Shown here: one piece after another, positions 3,851-42,854 of the stretch | Position numbering within the stretch: position 1 is the stretch's first letter | Layout of the letters: each line of letters starts with the position of its first letter | From: a virus | IMG/VR virus record: IMGVR_UViG_3300042691_018743 | Coordinates: 1-42,854 of that record | Length of the DNA stretch: 42,854 bases | Strand: one strand, 5' to 3' | The notes under the pieces: generated by a model | The model's input: the letters and a program-made list of their open reading frames with translations, nothing else | Database searches by the model: none | Told to the model about the DNA's origin: nothing | Position numbers and translations under genes: made by a program

Positions 3851-4084
3851 TCAGGATTTGATGCGCAGCGCGTCCTTGAGCATCCCCAACTGCCTGGCTG
3901 GGATGTGCCGGTATGGGTCTTTGAGAAGCCAGCCGCGCACAGTTCCTTCGCGGATGTGCAGTATCTCAGCGATCCTGCGCATCCTGGCGATGTTGGTAGG
4001 CTCAGGCAGTCGGGCAAGGATTTGCCTGAGTTCGTCCTGTCGTTGTTTAGAATCATTCATCAAGTAATTATACGTTGTAATCAT
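3851..4084 (-). CDS. Small HTH-like DNA-binding protein
   Basis: 77 residues. Residues 31-55 read like a helix-turn-helix (IARMRRIAEILHIREGTVRGWL), as in small phage regulators. ATG 4084 overlaps the TGA of the methyltransferase gene as ATGA, a coupling pattern repeated across this genome; an internal Met at residue 9 (4060) is an alternative, and neither has a clear ribosome site. A possible terminator follows it at 3805-3838. It may regulate the replication genes, but no target is shown. Confidence 0.65.
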   Translation of the reverse strand: MITTYNYLMNDSKQRQDELRQILARLPEPTNIARMRRIAEILHIREGTVRGWLLKDPYRHIPARQLGMLKDALRIKS

Positions 4085-5649
4085 TGAGCTGTGGGGCTGT
4101 AATTATTTTGCGCTACTAAAATCACCACGGATACACTTGTTCCTTCGAATTCCTTATCGTAAGGACCGTGCCAAGTCAGATTCATGCCTGGCAGGTTGAG
4201 GCTTCGATTTTTGGCGCCCGATGGCAGGATCGCTACCAGTCGCCCACCAGGCTTGACCAAACCAGCGGCGCGTTCCAGGTGTGCCTGCCACCGGCCTTGA
4301 TCGAATGGCGGGTTCATCACGATACGGTCGAAGCGCTCGGCAAACTGGTGCGTCATAAAATCAGCTTCGATGCAGGTCTTGCCCTTGGCTTGAAGCACCT
4401 TGCAGTGCAGCTTGCTCAGCTCTACGCATACGGTGTGACCGGGAAGAATGTCAGCCAGGCCACCCTGGCCAGCGCTGGGCTCAAGCACGGTCTGCCCCTC
4501 GCCGATCTCGGCCAGCTCTACGGCGATCTTGGCCAGGCTTGGCGGGGTAGGGTAGTACTGATGCGATTTGTGGTCGGGTACGCAACCGCTGTTGATAATC
4601 TCATCGAGCACATCGGTAGGGTTGTAGTCGAAGTTGTAGTGGTAATCATCCCGAACACCGCCGATGCTTTCAATGACTTGGCGCGCCTGTTGCTCGACGT
4701 GCTTATCAACATCCGCCTGCCAGAATAACCATCTGTTGTTGTATTTGTTGCACTTGAATTCATACAGCCGGTTGACGACTGCAAACGGTAGAGGGCGCAT
4801 GATCGCGGCCACGGTCTTGGCCTTGCGCTCCGGGCGCTTCCTGAATTGGCTCGGGATAGCGAGCGGGTAAAGCTGGGCGAGTACACAATTCAGACGCCAT
4901 GCCATATCCGGGTGTACTTCCAGATGGGCGGTGCCTTTCTTGTACAAGCGCATCCGTAGCGCGCCACCGTCCACGCTTACCCATTGACCCCAGTGACGTT
5001 TCAGTGTGTCTATTAAGCTTGATGTTGCTGTCCACTTCGGCTCATCGCGCCCCATGAATTTGGCGATCACCGCGCGCAGGTCGTTAATGTATCCAGCGCG
5101 GCCATGGTTAGTGCTGTAGTAGCTGTTAAGCACGAAGCCGATGATCATCCGCTTACCGAAGCCTTCTGGGGCGTTGGTAACGTGCTCACCGGACAAATTG
5201 CGGAATATTCCATCAACACGCTCTGCAAAAAACTGGCTGCGCTTGCTTAGCAAGTCGGCGAGTGTTGCCCGGACGGTCTCGGCGGTAAATTCCGGGGCTT
5301 TATGTTCGCCGATGATCTTGTGCCACTCGTCACGGCGCGCCTGGGGCATGTAGTCCAGAACGTCGGTGAGTTGCAGCGCCTTGCTCCAGTAACCGGAATT
5401 GAGCGCTGCGACGGATCGCTCGGCGTTAAATAGCTCACTGACCGACGGAATGCTGTAGTGTCGGTCACGTACCTTGGCGGCTTCCAGAAAGTAGTGCATG
5501 GTCTCAGCGACTTCGCCCGTTACTGTCTCAGATAACGACAGGATCCGGGCTTTGGTGGCGTCGTATTGACTAATCAGTAAGTCTAGTACGCTAGTGGATA
5601 CTGGTGCAAAAAATGTGGATTCGTTGTCCACTAGATCGAATTGATTCAT
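4081..5649 (-). CDS. DUF4942-containing DNA adenine-type methyltransferase
   Basis: 522 residues. The N-terminal part (about 1-330) resembles the DUF4942 region found in phage and plasmid proteins. The C-terminal part is an S-adenosylmethionine-dependent DNA methyltransferase: YPTPPSLA at 366-373, motif I VLEPSAGQGG at 388-397, and catalytic motif IV NPPF at 446-449, which is typical of N6-adenine enzymes. It probably modifies phage DNA against host restriction; the target site is unknown. ATG 5649 has AAGGAT upstream. It is the first gene after the promoter at 5831-5858, and a GC hairpin lies just before the ribosome site. No matching restriction enzyme gene was recognised, so it is an orphan. 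Confidence 0.88.
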   Translation of the reverse strand: MNQFDLVDNESTFFAPVSTSVLDLLISQYDATKARILSLSETVTGEVAETMHYFLEAAKVRDRHYSIPSVSELFNAERSVAALNSGYWSKALQLTDVLDYMPQARRDEWHKIIGEHKAPEFTAETVRATLADLLSKRSQFFAERVDGIFRNLSGEHVTNAPEGFGKRMIIGFVLNSYYSTNHGRAGYINDLRAVIAKFMGRDEPKWTATSSLIDTLKRHWGQWVSVDGGALRMRLYKKGTAHLEVHPDMAWRLNCVLAQLYPLAIPSQFRKRPERKAKTVAAIMRPLPFAVVNRLYEFKCNKYNNRWLFWQADVDKHVEQQARQVIESIGGVRDDYHYNFDYNPTDVLDEIINSGCVPDHKSHQYYPTPPSLAKIAVELAEIGEGQTVLEPSAGQGGLADILPGHTVCVELSKLHCKVLQAKGKTCIEADFMTHQFAERFDRIVMNPPFDQGRWQAHLERAAGLVKPGGRLVAILPSGAKNRSLNLPGMNLTWHGPYDKEFEGTSVSVVILVAQNNYSPTAQ

Positions 5650-39009: not shown

Positions 39010-39552
39010 TCATCCTTCGCGGCCTGGCACCCACGCCCTGCCGAAACCCGATGTGCGCGCCGAACCGCGCACCGTCATGCCGGAACGATCTAACAGTCGC
39101 TCCAGCTCTTCATCTTCCATACCCAGCCTGCGGCATATCTCGGCGTTATTCATTCCGGCCTTGACCATGCCGCGCACGATCTCAGCCATTTTCAGGACAG
39201 CGTGCGTACCCCTGGCGCGGTTGTGCCGTATCGTGCTCATCATCCGATGCACCGGGTCGGCCTGAATCGTCACAACCGGCACCATGCCGCCAGTCATGGC
39301 GCGGATGGCAGGCGTAGCGCTGACCGTCCATCGGTGAAACCCGTCCACGATGGTGTTGTCGGGCAGCACGCAAATCGGTTGAGTCCACCCGTCCTCCAGT
39401 ATCGAAAGCTTGAGCAAATCAAGTTCAGGCGGGGCGACTGAGTTCGGATTCCAATGGTTCGCCTTCAGCTTGGCGCGCGGCACCCATCGAACGCTCGATA
39501 CGGGCTGCGCTGCTGGTCCTTCGCTTCGCCGGGACTGGTTTCTGCTCGACAT
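39010..39552 (-). CDS. ParB/Srx-fold protein next to terminase
   Basis: 180 residues. LKLSILEDGWTQPI and DNTIVDGFHRW (GFHR at 71-74) give the ParB/sulfiredoxin nucleotide-binding core. The C-terminal 60 residues hold a helix-turn-helix-like element (NNAEICRRLGMEDEELERLLDRSG). It may bind CTP or ATP or act as a nuclease. ATG 39552 lies inside the upstream HNH gene, with AAGGAG 12 bases before it, so the two reading frames overlap by 128 bases. One base separates its stop from TerS. Confidence 0.85.
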   Translation of the reverse strand: MSSRNQSRRSEGPAAQPVSSVRWVPRAKLKANHWNPNSVAPPELDLLKLSILEDGWTQPICVLPDNTIVDGFHRWTVSATPAIRAMTGGMVPVVTIQADPVHRMMSTIRHNRARGTHAVLKMAEIVRGMVKAGMNNAEICRRLGMEDEELERLLDRSGMTVRGSARTSGFGRAWVPGREG

Positions 39553-40057
39553 GCTTCCAGGTTTCTCCTTGAATTGCCTGCTTCGCCGTTACCTTGTGAA
39601 CGCCGTACAGCCTTGCAATCTTGACGATCTGCATTCCGCTCGCGGCCAGCTTTCGCATTTCAGAGACAGCCGACTCATCCAGCTTTGCCGCGTGGTGGTC
39701 GCTGCCATACTCGAAATCCCAGTTGCTATGCTTGGCGCGGTCATCAGCGTTCTCTTTTGCTGTTCCCCATCGAAGGTTGCTTGGCACGTTGTTGAGCCTG
39801 TTGCCATCTGAGTGGCAAGCCTGAAGCTCCGGCGAAGCTGGAAGGCCATGGAAAGCCATGCAGACAAGCCGGTGGATGCCGACGTGGTAGTAACTGCCGC
39901 CAGAAAACAGGCTGACCACAAGGTATCCATGGCGCGAAAGCTTTGGCGTGAGAACTTTTCCAACCATGTAGTTGCGCTTTTGGTTGCGCCATCGCCGGAC
40001 CTGTCCATCATTTGATACCTCGTAATCCTCGTACCCTGGCACCTGCTTCCAGTTCAT
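39425..40057 (-). CDS. NUMOD4-HNH homing endonuclease
   Basis: 210 residues. NUMOD4 at the start (WKQVPGYEDYEVSNDGQVR, residues 3-21), then an HNH_3-type domain (IHRLVCMAFHG, CHSDGNRLNN, NLRWGT; about 61-100) and a helix-turn-helix (about 140-162). This is the usual build of free-standing phage homing endonucleases. The last 42 residues overlap the ParB-like gene in another frame. It lies between the PAPS-reductase-like gene and this ParB gene and looks like an insertion. Confidence 0.88.
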   Translation of the reverse strand: MNWKQVPGYEDYEVSNDGQVRRWRNQKRNYMVGKVLTPKLSRHGYLVVSLFSGGSYYHVGIHRLVCMAFHGLPASPELQACHSDGNRLNNVPSNLRWGTAKENADDRAKHSNWDFEYGSDHHAAKLDESAVSEMRKLAASGMQIVKIARLYGVHKVTAKQAIQGETWKHVEQKPVPAKRRTSSAARIERSMGAARQAEGEPLESELSRPA

Positions 40058-40102
40058 TGCACACTCCGGTGATTGATCTATTTACAATCATATCACCTTT
40101 AC

Positions 40103-41272
40103 TTACTTAATCTCGGCCAGCGCCTGCTCCAGGGTGATGCCCAGCTTCTTGCGGGTCAGATCGCCTTTGATCTGCATATTTCCGCTGCGCCTGCCTTTCA
40201 GGTCGCCCCTGATCGCCAGGGTGCAGAAAAACTGCCAGCTCGCCCCACTAACCGGGTCGGCTTCCTCGGCGGGGATGTCTCTGCCCAGCGTTTTGCGGTT
40301 GTGCAGGTCAATCAGTTCGGCAACGTTGGCGCGGATTTCGCCCTGCTCGGTTTTCGGCCAGAGCGCCACCAGATCGTCGAACCACGTCCGCCATGTCTTG
40401 CCTTCCGGTAATTCGATGGTTCCGTACCCGTACAGCTCGGTCTTGGCGTACCGCGCAGCGGTTGCAGCTCCAGGCACGCGCGCGATCATCTTGTGCCAGA
40501 GATGCGGCCAGCACTGCGCGTACTGATGCAGACCTCCGAGCGGTTCTTCCCCGTAGGGTGGGCACACGCGCTGGGCGCTGTGCGACACGCCAGCTTTGTC
40601 GAACACGTCATAGGTTCGGTTGTAGTCCCAACCGAACAGCTTGGGCGCCAGCCAGACATCCTCGGTCGTCCAGTCGTAGATCGGGCTGGCCGCGCAGTTG
40701 TGCCCCTTCCTCGGCGATGTAATCCAGTTATCCTCGATCTTCATCGACACCATGCGCAGCCGTCGCAGGCTTTCCTGCGCCCGGATACCGCGAACATCCG
40801 CCACCATGCCGTGCTCAGCCCCGTACACAAGGGGTGCGCAGTCAGGCATCGTCATTCCCAGGCTGAAACCGGGCAGCTTCGTGATCGCGGTCTTCGGCAG
40901 TTCGCGCACCCAGATGCCACGCTCTGCCGGGTTCCACGGATACCAGTACGGCGATTTGCGGCTGCATGCGTTCCTGTGCTGCACCGGGATGCAGTACCAC
41001 CGGAAGCGAATATCTGGGCGCGCCGCTACCCGGTGCAGGTATTCAACCGTTTCCGGGTGAATTGCTTCCTCATCGAACGTGTACACGTCGAGCGGTAGCC
41101 GTCCGCGCTCACTGGCAACCATCAGCGCCAGGTTGAGGCATACGGTGGAATCCTTGCCGCCTGAAAACGACACGCACACCTTGTCGAAGCGGTCGAACAG
41201 CAGATTCATGCGCTCAAGCGCTTTGTCGAACACGTTGGACTTGAGAATCTTGCGGCGGAATAGCTTGGCCAT
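40103..41272 (-). CDS. PAPS-reductase-like protein, DUF3440/IbrA type
   Basis: 389 residues. PP-loop SGGKDS at 37-42, GIRAQES at 162-168 and PIYDWTTEDVW at 197-207 define the adenine nucleotide alpha-hydrolase fold of PAPS reductases; the long C-terminal part fits the DUF3440/IbrA group. These proteins activate substrates with ATP or transfer sulfur; IbrA pairs with a ParB-like IbrB, and a ParB-like gene lies two genes upstream here. A DNA-modification role (as in DndC-type phosphorothioation) is only inferred. Confidence 0.88.
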   Translation of the reverse strand: MAKLFRRKILKSNVFDKALERMNLLFDRFDKVCVSFSGGKDSTVCLNLALMVASERGRLPLDVYTFDEEAIHPETVEYLHRVAARPDIRFRWYCIPVQHRNACSRKSPYWYPWNPAERGIWVRELPKTAITKLPGFSLGMTMPDCAPLVYGAEHGMVADVRGIRAQESLRRLRMVSMKIEDNWITSPRKGHNCAASPIYDWTTEDVWLAPKLFGWDYNRTYDVFDKAGVSHSAQRVCPPYGEEPLGGLHQYAQCWPHLWHKMIARVPGAATAARYAKTELYGYGTIELPEGKTWRTWFDDLVALWPKTEQGEIRANVAELIDLHNRKTLGRDIPAEEADPVSGASWQFFCTLAIRGDLKGRRSGNMQIKGDLTRKKLGITLEQALAEIK

Positions 41273-41967
41273 CAGCGCGTCCTGATCGTTTCGATTTCGG
41301 ATGCCCGGACACCATCCACAAACGTCCTGCCAATCATCGGGTGGTTTTCGTCGGTCGGTCCGACATCGCTATCCGGGTGCCACGCTACGATGTGAAGATG
41401 CTTGTCCGTTGTCCTGAATCGGTGCGGTGCATGCTCCGGGATGCGCCAGAGCACTCCGGGCGCGAGTTCCGATACGCCAGCGGGTGTGACGCACTGCCCC
41501 CTGCCACGGTAAACCACACCGATGCGGTCGCTCGGGTGCGTGTGCATGGTCTGCTCGACACCAGGCGGGATGTGCAGGTGATTCAGGCAGGCTTCACCCT
41601 TGCGCCACGGTGGTATGAGTACGCTGTCAGTGCAGCCGTTGATGTACTTTAGCCGTCCATACGGCTCGACTGATCCACCGATCATGAACGGGAAGTCGGC
41701 CTCGGGCTGGTAGATCAGCATCACCTTGCCGCCCGGGTTGGTCAGCTCACCCGTTCCAGCATTGATGACGAAGTAAGACCCGCTGCCGATGCTGTGCATC
41801 CTGCCGTATTGGCGCAGGGTGGCGTTCTCGCCGTCCAGCACAAAGCCGAACACCGCGCCATTTTTGAAGTCGGCAAGCAAATCCCATGACGGGTTGAGCG
41901 CGGCCACGACGCAGGCGTGCGGGGCGTGGAATACGATGCCGCCAGTCCAAGGGAAGGTCTCAAGCAT
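41272..41967 (-). CDS. Cupin-domain protein (possible bicupin)
   Basis: 231 residues. The C-terminal domain has cupin motif 1 MHTHPSDR (H142, H144) and motif 2 PEHAPHRF (177-184, H182), which can bind a metal. The N-terminal half has a similar GSGSYFVINAG strand pattern and may be a second, degenerate cupin. Cupins include dioxygenases, isomerases and binding proteins, so the reaction is open. ATG 41967 is chosen because AGAGGA is 7 bases upstream; a Met two codons earlier is too close. It overlaps the ParB-like gene by 8 bases and the next gene by 1. Confidence 0.75.
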   Translation of the reverse strand: MLETFPWTGGIVFHAPHACVVAALNPSWDLLADFKNGAVFGFVLDGENATLRQYGRMHSIGSGSYFVINAGTGELTNPGGKVMLIYQPEADFPFMIGGSVEPYGRLKYINGCTDSVLIPPWRKGEACLNHLHIPPGVEQTMHTHPSDRIGVVYRGRGQCVTPAGVSELAPGVLWRIPEHAPHRFRTTDKHLHIVAWHPDSDVGPTDENHPMIGRTFVDGVRASEIETIRTR

Positions 41968-42631
41968 CGGCATATCCTCTGGCGATGACGAGCAGGGCAT
42001 CAGCGGTGGTTTCTAGTCCGTGCTTCTGCTTGGCCTTGGCAATGGCATCGAACAGCACCTGGCGAGCATCCACGGTCATCAGGACATTGAACGGCACCAT
42101 GTCCGGTGCCTGGTAGGTGTCCGTGTCATTGCCAGGCACCTCCTGGGTATCCGGTTCGTCGTCCGGCAGGTCGGTCTCTGGCTCGGGTTCTGGTGCCGGT
42201 CGCGGTGGTTCTGAGATTCGGTCAAGTTCGGCGCGTGCCTGCATTTCCAGGGCATCGAATTCCGACTGGCTGAATCCGGTCATGGTCACGGAACCGAGTC
42301 CGGCCATGATCTCATTGAGTTCGTCCGCCAGCTTGTCTTCATCCCAGCCGCTAAACTCGGCGGTCTTGTTGTCGGCTACCCGTAGCGCGCGCACCTGGTC
42401 GGGTGTTAGCTCCTTGGCTACATGCACCGGCGCTTTCTTGAGCTTGAGCAGCTGAGCGGCAGCAAAGCGACCATGGCCTGCGATGATTACGCCCTCCGCG
42501 TCCACCACGATAGGCTGACGCCAGCCAAAGGCTTTGATGCTTTCCGCTACTTTCTCGGCGGCATTCCTCAGCACGCGCGGATTGTTGGGATAGGGGCGAA
42601 TCTTTGTAAGCGGCCAGTCTTCGATGAGCAT
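41960..42631 (-). CDS. ParB/Srx-fold protein at the head of the late operon
   Basis: 223 residues. The ParB core is clear: KIRPYPNNPRV, FGWRQPIVVD and GVIIAGHGRFAAAQ (GHGR at 52-55). A Pro/Glu/Asp-rich linker (about 138-170) joins a small C-terminal domain (DARQVLFDAIAKAKQKHG). Relatives are often fused to or beside DNA methyltransferases; here a cupin gene follows instead. It is the first gene after the late promoter. No strong ribosome site is seen (GGAG 12 bases before the ATG). Confidence 0.88.
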   Translation of the reverse strand: MLIEDWPLTKIRPYPNNPRVLRNAAEKVAESIKAFGWRQPIVVDAEGVIIAGHGRFAAAQLLKLKKAPVHVAKELTPDQVRALRVADNKTAEFSGWDEDKLADELNEIMAGLGSVTMTGFSQSEFDALEMQARAELDRISEPPRPAPEPEPETDLPDDEPDTQEVPGNDTDTYQAPDMVPFNVLMTVDARQVLFDAIAKAKQKHGLETTADALLVIARGYADA

Positions 42632-42649
42632 AAGGGCTTCGGCTCCAGT

Positions 42650-42666
42650 GACAACTCAAGGTTGTC
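42650..42666 (-). other. Perfect 6-bp dyad near the late transcription start
   Basis: GACAAC (42650-42655) and GTTGTC (42661-42666) form a perfect inverted repeat with a 5-base gap, just downstream of the predicted -10 at 42674-42669. It can be an operator or a hairpin at the mRNA 5' end. Its half-site resembles the GTTGTAC motif nearby. Confidence 0.45.
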
Positions 42667-42668
42667 GC

Positions 42669-42698
42669 ATTGTATGCTGGTTTATTACGTTGTACAAC
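42669..42698 (-). promoter_or_regulatory. Predicted late promoter with GTTGTACAAC palindrome at the -35
   Basis: On the minus strand, TTGTAC (42697-42692) and TACAAT (42674-42669) are 17 bases apart. The -10 is good and the -35 weak, as expected for a promoter needing activation. The palindrome GTTGTACAAC (42689-42698) covers the -35 and shares its core with the octamers before the integrase gene. Confidence 0.5.
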
Positions 42699-42700
42699 TT

Positions 42701-42838
42701 GGCAATCTGTTGTCGTTTTCTGGCAACGATTTGCCTATATTCCAGATAGGAATATTGAAAGCGTTCTATATTCCAAAAACTGGTTATAGTCTGCTCCTAT
42801 CAAAAACAGACTTTCGATAGCTGCCACTAGTTTTTGAT
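42701..42838. repeat. Inverted and direct repeats in the end region (possible terminase-binding sites)
   Basis: GGCAATCTGTTG (42701-42712) is an imperfect inverted repeat of CAACGATTTGCC (42724-42735). CTATATTCCA is directly repeated at 42735-42744 and 42766-42775 (31 bases apart), with a third inverted partial copy GGAATAT at 42749-42755. ATCAAAAAC (42799-42807) and GTTTTTGAT (42830-42838) are a perfect 9-bp inverted repeat. The 223-bp region has no gene. Such arrays near cos are typical of terminase-binding sites. Confidence 0.45.
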
Positions 42839-42843
42839 CGGGG

Positions 42844-42854
42844 TCGCGCGTCAC
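42844..42854. repeat. Right copy of 11-bp terminal direct repeat
   Basis: TCGCGCGTCAC, identical to positions 1-11. See the left copy for the reading as a possible cohesive end. Confidence 0.6.

Follow-up and report, generated by a model that had tools for sequence, protein, structure and literature searches.

A ParB1, bicupin, IbrA, and IbrB gene cassette upstream of terminase in uncultivated phages, and its possible role in DNA modification

A ParB-fold protein (ParB1), a bicupin, IbrA, and IbrB are encoded by four closely packed, overlapping genes that constitute a single cassette, fixed directly upstream of the terminase genes in uncultivated phages with three terminase families. The arrangement is not a matter of chance, because it recurs in 70 viral contigs other than the 42,854-nucleotide stretch analyzed here (the whole of IMG/VR record IMGVR_UViG_3300042691_018743 as presented; hereafter, the window). 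As the leading explanation, to which we assign a rough probability of 0.4, the cassette may act as the late phase begins, modifying the replicated DNA of the phage itself or nucleotide precursors for it. The literature searched, which was mostly open access, yielded no paper combining ParB, PAPS reductase, cupin, and phage, and the papers mentioned IbrA/IbrB merely within annotation lists.

RESULTS

Layout of the cassette

All five proteins that the first-pass annotation had placed ahead of terminase were confirmed on the minus strand at 39010-42631, and their domains were verified with HMMs. The features are as follows.

42631-41960, minus strand: ParB1, 223 aa; ParB N-domain (GHGR box), acidic linker, and conserved C-terminal helical domain
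41967-41272, minus strand: bicupin, 231 aa; degenerate N-terminal cupin, C-terminal cupin with invariant H142xH144...R148...H182
41272-40103, minus strand: IbrA-like PP-loop ATP-pyrophosphatase (PAPS_reduct and DUF3440), 389 aa; SGGKDS loop retained
40057-39425, minus strand: NUMOD4-HNH free-standing homing-type endonuclease (PF07463; PF13392, HNH_3)
39552-39010, minus strand: IbrB-like ParB, 180 aa; DGFHR box, RHNRARGTH box, and HTH-like helices
39008-38439, minus strand: TerS (context), directly downstream of IbrB; phrog_57, E 4e-23
38446-36524, minus strand: TerL of the GpA type (context); PF05876, E 7e-95, and PF20454, E 4e-93

ParB1 and the cupin overlap by 8 bp, the conserved cupin start being the ATG at 41967, not the longer-ORF start at 42000. 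The cupin and IbrA genes overlap by 1 bp, 45 bp separate IbrA from the HNH gene, the 3' end of the latter overlaps ibrB by 128 bp, and a single base pair lies between IbrB and TerS. The HNH gene is an insertion between ibrA and ibrB, not a cassette member: it is missing from relatives L002, L007, and L008, in which IbrA and IbrB overlap. Its NUMOD4 and HNH_3 domains and the lack of the insertion in relatives identify it as a homing-type endonuclease; the junction alignment holds a short misaligned island, and the insertion end points are only approximate. A late promoter had also been proposed ahead of ParB1, but a consensus scan lent it no support: the region contained just two matches, both weak (9 of 12 positions), where 1.2 would be expected. 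No Rfam families or tRNA were found. A DNA methyltransferase (phrog_6263) is also encoded in the genome; the phage may thus be protected already by a different modification, an observation that runs counter to DNA modification by the cassette.

Recurrence across uncultivated phages

Our locus survey, seeded with the cupin alone, comprised 81 viral loci. All four genes were present in 70 of them and IbrA in 76; in four of the five loci lacking IbrA, the contig breaks off at the cupin. The usual order was ParB1-cupin-(PAPSR2)-IbrA-IbrB, with median gaps of -4, -1, and -4 bp, mostly reflecting overlaps of 1-4 bases. TerL followed directly downstream in 67/72 loci, at a median of 522 bp, and the TerL genes fell into three families; mapping these onto the cupin tree required 6 changes of label, against a possible minimum of 2. 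Pairwise dN/dS against the nearest relative ranged from 0.06 to 0.21 in the four genes. A second PP-loop protein (PAPSR2) and a class II glutamine amidotransferase were optional, and the amidotransferase adjoined PAPSR2 directly in every cupin-seeded locus carrying it (8/8). Gene order, overlaps, co-occurrence, and purifying selection thus strongly support the earlier suggestion of a joint system. The same annotation had reasoned that independent occurrence of the genes without ParB would undermine that suggestion, and here the outcome was divided: the cupin does occur without ParB or IbrA in bacterial chromosomes, and IbrA/IbrB often occur without this cupin, but in viruses IbrA accompanies the cupin almost without exception.

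IbrA is a PP-loop enzyme

IbrA matched PF11922 at 51.9 bits (cut-off, 25), PF01507 at 43.9 (cut-off, 22.5), and phrog_2302 at E 5e-84. Its model (pLDDT 91) has a fold nearest to the FAD synthase PAPS domain and to APS/PAPS reductases, and SGGKDS or SAGKDS is retained in nearly all of 242 aligned copies. The previous identification of an IbrA/IbrB pair proved correct (phrog_2302 with phrog_2159), the DUF3440 and PAPS_reduct protein having an adjoining IbrB-type ParB that overlaps ibrA in relatives. The score against the CysH equivalog was far below its cut-off (NCBIfam NF002537; 21.5 versus 154 bits). The catalytic cysteine of PAPS reductase sits in the C-terminal part of the protein; in that part of IbrA, no cysteine is conserved except the weakly kept Cys350 (24/43). 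IbrA is therefore unlikely to be a sulfate reductase. Its conserved cysteines are at positions 94, 103, 237, and 254, none of them present in all sequences; all four co-occur in 42/76 yet have been lost independently, and a four-cysteine Fe-S site is accordingly not claimed. Other candidate identities also failed, namely the DndC equivalog (TIGR03183; 14.9 versus 290.4 bits) and QueC, for which IbrA had no PF06508 match up to E 0.1 and a QueC-like phrog match at just E 0.012. A PDB sequence search gave only weak matches for the cupin, IbrA, and IbrB.

The two ParB-fold proteins

ParB1 matched PF02195 (E 4e-7), phrog_620 (E 2e-47), and the N-terminal part of ParB-methyltransferases (phrog_498, E 1e-42), with N17, G52, and D87-N88 invariant across 20 relatives. 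IbrB matched phrog_2159 (E 1.7e-65), Pfam ParB_N alone being below threshold, and its invariant residues are D70-G71-x-H73-R74, N111-R112, and H117. Both proteins retain the box I/box II residue positions of ParB. Sulfiredoxin identity was rejected, as the catalytic cysteine of the GCHR box is missing and the IbrB box reads DGFHR; no cysteine column exceeded 30% in the IbrB or ParB1 alignments. Neither does a ParABS system fit, since no ParA partner was found: one ParA-like Pfam model (PF13614) had no match in the genome, with 14/14 controls positive.

The bicupin

The cupin matched PF07883 over residues 131-192 only and had no PHROG match. Its AlphaFold model (pLDDT 94) was placed by Foldseek closest to DUF861/ureidoglycine-aminohydrolase-type bicupins (TM 0.60-0.67), with BacB and AerE among other hits. 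The histidines of the H142xH144...R148...H182 set, which is invariant across 58 relatives, are of the metal-ligand type. By sequence, the protein is not an S-ureidoglycine aminohydrolase, as no such Pfam or NCBIfam match (DUF861) was obtained and the likeness is in fold only; nor is it an ectoine synthase, matching PF07883 alone, while PF06339 scored 17.6 against a cut-off of 27 in relative L005. Long ORFs that suggest cupin fusions, such as one of 588 aa in L085, have the appearance of reading frames extended upstream through GC-rich DNA and are not taken as real fusions. No cultured model phage turned up for the bicupin version when 50,697 records of cultured phages were searched by tblastn with four divergent bicupins. 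In bacterial chromosomes, members of the same bicupin family adjoin asparagine-synthetase-like genes in 7 loci, NRPS genes on 2 contigs of one MAG, and a methyltransferase gene in 1 case, neighbors that point to small-molecule chemistry and away from DNA modification. Unlike the window, the loci with asparagine-synthetase-like genes (Myxococcales, Verrucomicrobia, and Planctomycetes) lack ParB and IbrA and mostly include a zinc-ribbon membrane protein.

Comparison with known systems

The E. coli ibrAB genes (YbdN/YbdM in K-12) belong to the same families as the window's pair, in the same order and overlapping; however, the E. coli and Streptococcus phage versions examined lack both the cupin and ParB1. 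Kamiyu (Pipefishvirus) and Shrooms (Laroyevirus) carry ParB1, IbrA, and IbrB just before terminase, as the window does, but no bicupin was detected in them. Gaiavirus, with IbrA and an ectoine-synthase-like cupin/ParB fusion, and Pseudoalteromonas phage XCL1123 do combine IbrA/IbrB with a cupin, although theirs is a single-barrel protein from a different family (PF06339), either joined to IbrB or encoded next to it, and ParB1 is absent. Across the Gaia-type loci (n=80), this cupin was fused to IbrB in 66 and encoded separately in about 12; since the two cupin families are unrelated, a cupin has joined IbrA/IbrB at least twice. When the three TerL families were sought, a terminase was detected near only 1 of 53 testable Gaia-type cassettes, an observation at odds with DNA modification.

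Two DNA modification systems offer parallels. Dpd (DpdA, DpdB, and Gat-QueC) likewise has a ParB-like ATPase, DpdB, serving dPreQ0 insertion into DNA (PMC12839542), together with a PP-loop enzyme and a class II amidotransferase, Gat-QueC making dG+ in phage DNA (PMC6884629). The window genome differs in that IbrA is not QueC, TGT/DpdA is lacking, and a cupin stands in their place; Dpd membership was rejected because PF01702 had no match in the genome (14/14 controls positive), although a divergent DpdA could escape this model. Dnd/Ssp also combines a PAPS-reductase-like PP-loop enzyme (DndC) with a protein assigned to the ParB-like superfamily (DndB; PMC11662687), but the DndC score of IbrA is below cut-off, its four semi-conserved cysteines are not kept together, and Pfam, NCBIfam, and PADLOC found no DndD/DndE among the five cassette proteins. 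The IbrA/IbrB pair is thus already known; what is new is the bicupin partner, the fixed pre-terminase position, the optional PP-loop and glutamine amidotransferase genes, and the second, unrelated cupin with IbrB in another large phage group.

DISCUSSION

If the cassette modifies DNA, the ParB folds of ParB1 and IbrB would serve for binding of NTP and DNA and for presentation of the target, while IbrA would adenylate the substrate with ATP, a PP-loop reaction distinct from sulfate reduction. The activated group could then be processed without reduction by the metal bicupin (through hydrolysis, isomerization, or cyclization), much as ureidoglycine aminohydrolase and ectoine synthase act. In some phages, the extra PP-loop protein and class II glutamine amidotransferase may supply ammonia, like a split asparagine synthetase or Gat-QueC, and packaging of the modified DNA would follow. 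Marking of DNA before packaging would be consistent with the terminase-upstream position, the ParB-like partners, and the Dpd/Dnd precedents. Tentatively, and with considerable doubt, we suggest an undescribed class of phage DNA hypermodification in which a PP-loop adenylating enzyme and a cupin would build a non-canonical base under the guidance of ParB-fold NTPases before packaging, the cupin being exchangeable between the bicupin and the ectoine-synthase-like type and a glutamine amidotransferase being optional; this class would be common in uncultivated phages, its bicupin form missing from culture collections.

An unlikely alternative, which nevertheless deserves attention, is small-molecule auxiliary metabolism of an amino-acid-like or nucleotide-like metabolite (e.g., an amide or a cyclic amidine), with the ParB-fold proteins acting as SerK/SbnI-like kinases, not as DNA binders. 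The bacterial bicupin neighborhoods and the UGlyAH-type fold favor it, as does a weak match of the IbrB profile to free serine kinase (E about 0.7), but that profile fits ParB/Noc structures far better than SerK, IbrB has HTH-like helices, and a metabolic gene would not be expected to stay beside terminase whatever the type of that enzyme. We consider it decidedly unlikely that the four proteins turn on late phage or host genes as transcriptional coactivators, in the manner reported for ibrAB and the prophage eib genes. Phage records do annotate the pair as coactivators of prophage gene expression, a label that sits uneasily with DNA modification, and the cassette heads the late operon and its IbrB carries HTH-like helices; yet co-activation leaves the conserved PP-loop active site, the invariant cupin histidines, and the optional amidotransferase unexplained, and a sigma-like gene already lies upstream in several relatives (13 loci).

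A packaging accessory, in which the ParB-fold pair would act as CTP clamps aiding end choice or processing by terminase under regulation by IbrA and the cupin, draws on TerS/TerL adjacency in 67/72 loci, but it is improbable given that three terminase families share the cassette and that most IbrA/IbrB/cupin cassettes of the Gaia type have no terminase close by. More improbable still is anti-defense, superinfection exclusion, or a toxin-antitoxin function acting on the host: Listeria DUF3440/ParB genes have been listed by association as a putative toxin-antitoxin pair (PMC7020466), but PADLOC matched only a weak PP-loop similarity, the ParB-MTase N-terminus, and the homing nuclease, and the cassette heads structural genes instead of lying in a moron region. 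That IbrA is a true PAPS reductase of assimilatory sulfur metabolism, the sulfate-reduction reading that phage papers give to PAPS-reductase-like annotations (PMC10434257, PMC9144972) and to which the Pfam PAPS_reduct match would lend itself, is scarcely credible in view of the NCBIfam score, the cysteine pattern, and a cassette with no other sulfur gene.

At least 70 sampled uncultivated phages with differing packaging machines carry this cassette. The two independent cupin recruitments argue that the cupin step belongs to the core chemistry in many such systems. IbrA/IbrB genes are common in phages and occur also on the E. coli K-12 chromosome; the cassette gives them constant partners (the cupin, ParB1, and sometimes a split amidotransferase) and a constant terminase-side place, and what IbrA/IbrB does thereby becomes experimentally testable.

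Cassette locus

Our analysis showed that the cassette is a real module of four genes, conserved, under selection, mobile and linked to the terminase operon. Its genes encode ParB1, a bicupin, the PP-loop protein IbrA and the ParB-like protein IbrB, and they are arranged in the window, an entire IMG/VR virus record of 42,854 bp, with the terminase subunits (TerS, TerL) as follows.

42631-41960, minus: ParB1, first in transcription order
ATG at 41967 to 41272, minus: bicupin, second
41272-40103, minus: IbrA-type PP-loop protein, third
40057-39425, minus: NUMOD4-HNH nuclease, between ibrA and ibrB
39552-39010, minus: IbrB-type ParB, 3' of the HNH gene
39008-38439, minus: TerS (phrog_57)
38446-36524, minus: GpA-type TerL, after TerS
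47-1048, minus: endonuclease-VII-like ORF, left end of the record

Neighbouring cassette genes touch or overlap everywhere but around the HNH gene, and these coordinates bear out the tight packing ahead of TerS described in the first-pass annotation. Its view of the homing nuclease as inserted also held: the HNH gene is missing from the closest relatives (L002, L007, L008), and because ibrA there runs directly into ibrB, we regard the nuclease as an insertion outside the system. L007 carries, 5' of ParB1, a 333-aa ORF resembling the endonuclease-VII-like ORF; since genes of both window ends neighbour each other in this locus, the ends (47-1048 and 42632-42854) probably meet just upstream of ParB1, so the record probably represents a complete, circularly permuted genome opened just 5' of that gene. 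In addition to the cassette, the phage carries a methylation gene of its own, an early-region DUF4942 DNA methyltransferase (4081-5649, minus; phrog_6263, E 2e-185). The 1024-aa TerL of L002 (3791-6865) contains an intein-like in-frame insertion of ~380 aa, absent from the window TerL.

Conservation and linkage

A five-cupin alignment, seeded with the cupin alone, retrieved 340 IMG/VR relatives; among 81 viral loci (the best 80 of these plus an earlier scan), HMMs for the other genes placed all four together in 70 and IbrA in 76, which answers the call for a co-occurrence and gene-order check. The proposed test of whether cupin and IbrA genes occur apart came out mixed: viral cupins almost always come with IbrA, IbrA/IbrB often lacks this cupin, and bacteria have bicupins without ParB or IbrA. 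In four of the five IbrA-less loci, a contig end falls at the cupin; the only intact exception, L015 (789-2188), keeps ParB1 and bicupin followed directly by TerS, without IbrA/IbrB, and represents either the result of a natural deletion or a simpler version. The commonest order was ParB1-cupin-(PAPSR2)-IbrA-IbrB, PAPSR2 being a second, small PAPSR-like PP-loop protein found in ~20 loci, and the minority order was (ParB1)-IbrA-IbrB-cupin-(PAPSR2-GATase), with a class II glutamine amidotransferase. Median spacings, with ORF starts set mechanically, were -4 (ParB1/cupin), -1 (cupin/IbrA) and -4 bp (IbrA/IbrB). The reverse search with IbrA as seed added 75 loci, some of which share contigs with the cupin set: 49 had the bicupin, nine had ParB1-IbrA-IbrB without it, and nine had IbrA-IbrB alone. 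Pairwise dN/dS between the window and L007 was 0.12 for ParB1 (dS saturated), 0.17 for the cupin, 0.06 for IbrA and 0.21 for IbrB.

Of the 72 cupin loci that could be tested, 67 had TerL downstream, at a median distance of 522 bp; it belonged to three families (Terminase_3 type, 36; GpA type, 21; PF03354 type, 13). Terminase labels required six changes on the cupin tree, several forks of which are weak, against a minimum of two; therefore, the cassette appears to have repeatedly joined different terminases in the same place. Nine viral loci have a 165-aa protein between IbrA and IbrB (L077:7835-8329 and eight similar) that matched nothing in Pfam or PHROG. IbrB precedes IbrA in some cultured phages (L101, Microcystis phage Mwe-JY13; L104; L105), so the pair order varies outside the cassette.

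Protein features and cupin partners

Among solved structures, the bicupin model (pLDDT 94) was nearest to DUF861/ureidoglycine-aminohydrolase-like bicupins (1sfn, 1sef, 1rc6), oxalate decarboxylase, BacB and AerE. H142, H144 and H182 of its C-terminal barrel were kept in 58/58, R148 invariably occupies the usual motif-1 glutamate position, and R105, Y108 and H197 are also invariant. The IbrA model (pLDDT 91) most resembled the FAD-synthase PAPS domain, APS/PAPS reductases and the ATP sulfurylase CysD. Because its SGGKDS ATP loop is retained, the CysH equivalog score is not reached and no conserved C-terminal catalytic Cys was found in the alignment, IbrA is better read as a putative adenylating ATP-pyrophosphatase than as a reductase. 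Both IbrB and ParB1 retain the ParB box I/box II positions and lack the sulfiredoxin cysteine; the IbrB profile, which includes HTH-like helices, matched ParB/Noc structures at E about 5e-6.

IbrA of Mycobacterium phage Gaia is followed by a gene deposited as 'ectoine synthase/ParB', which matched PF06339 (E 1e-32) and ParB in Pfam. Among 80 viral loci retrieved with Gaia IbrA, this ectoine-synthase-like cupin was fused to IbrB in 66 and separate in about 12; it is also separate in Pseudoalteromonas phage XCL1123. The window bicupin did not match PF06339, so two distinct cupin families partner IbrA/IbrB. This non-orthologous replacement, together with the gene fusion, is good evidence that the cupin belongs to IbrA/IbrB function.

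The IbrA/IbrB pair is already known (YbdN/YbdM in E. coli K-12; PMC9068703), and the deposited genomes of Kamiyu (Pipefishvirus) and Shrooms (Laroyevirus) already show ParB-IbrA-IbrB-terminase. The literature searched contained no bicupin version, account of its constancy, optional amidotransferase or two-cupin pattern, which we consider new here; at tblastn sensitivity, no bicupin was found in 50,697 cultured-phage records.

Possible function

We tentatively favor DNA modification (probability about 0.4). The DNA-modification literature offers precedents for each type of cassette part except the cupin: the ParB-like ATPase DpdB works with the dPreQ0 inserter (PMC12839542), DndB is placed in the ParB-like superfamily (PMC11662687), and an amidotransferase-PP-loop fusion yields dG+ in phage DNA (PMC6884629). 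The amidotransferase (GATase_6/7) directly adjoined the PAPSR2 gene in all eight cupin-seeded loci bearing it, and 11 of 12 amidotransferase-bearing loci across all sets had a small PP-loop gene. Chromosomal bicupins without ParB/IbrA adjoin an asparagine-synthetase-like protein, with amidotransferase and PP-loop domains on a single chain, in seven loci (L088, L089, L092, L093, L094, L097, L098) from Myxococcales, Verrucomicrobia and Planctomycetes, most with a zinc-ribbon membrane protein. This recurring combination of amidotransferase and PP-loop chemistry is our strongest hint of the type of reaction. Other bicupin relatives lie next to NRPS genes (two contigs, one Ramlibacter MAG) or a methyltransferase (Paraburkholderia); these bacterial surroundings point to small molecules and against DNA modification. 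Small-molecule metabolism, second in our ranking, seems fairly unlikely. Transcriptional co-activation seems less probable again, a packaging accessory improbable, and an anti-host or anti-phage function slightly more so. Sulfate reduction is very unlikely, given the IbrA features that argue against a reductase. If the cassette modifies DNA, ParB1 and IbrB would engage DNA in an NTP-dependent manner, IbrA would adenylate, the cupin would perform a metal-dependent step, amidation could optionally follow, and the resulting modified DNA would then be packaged.
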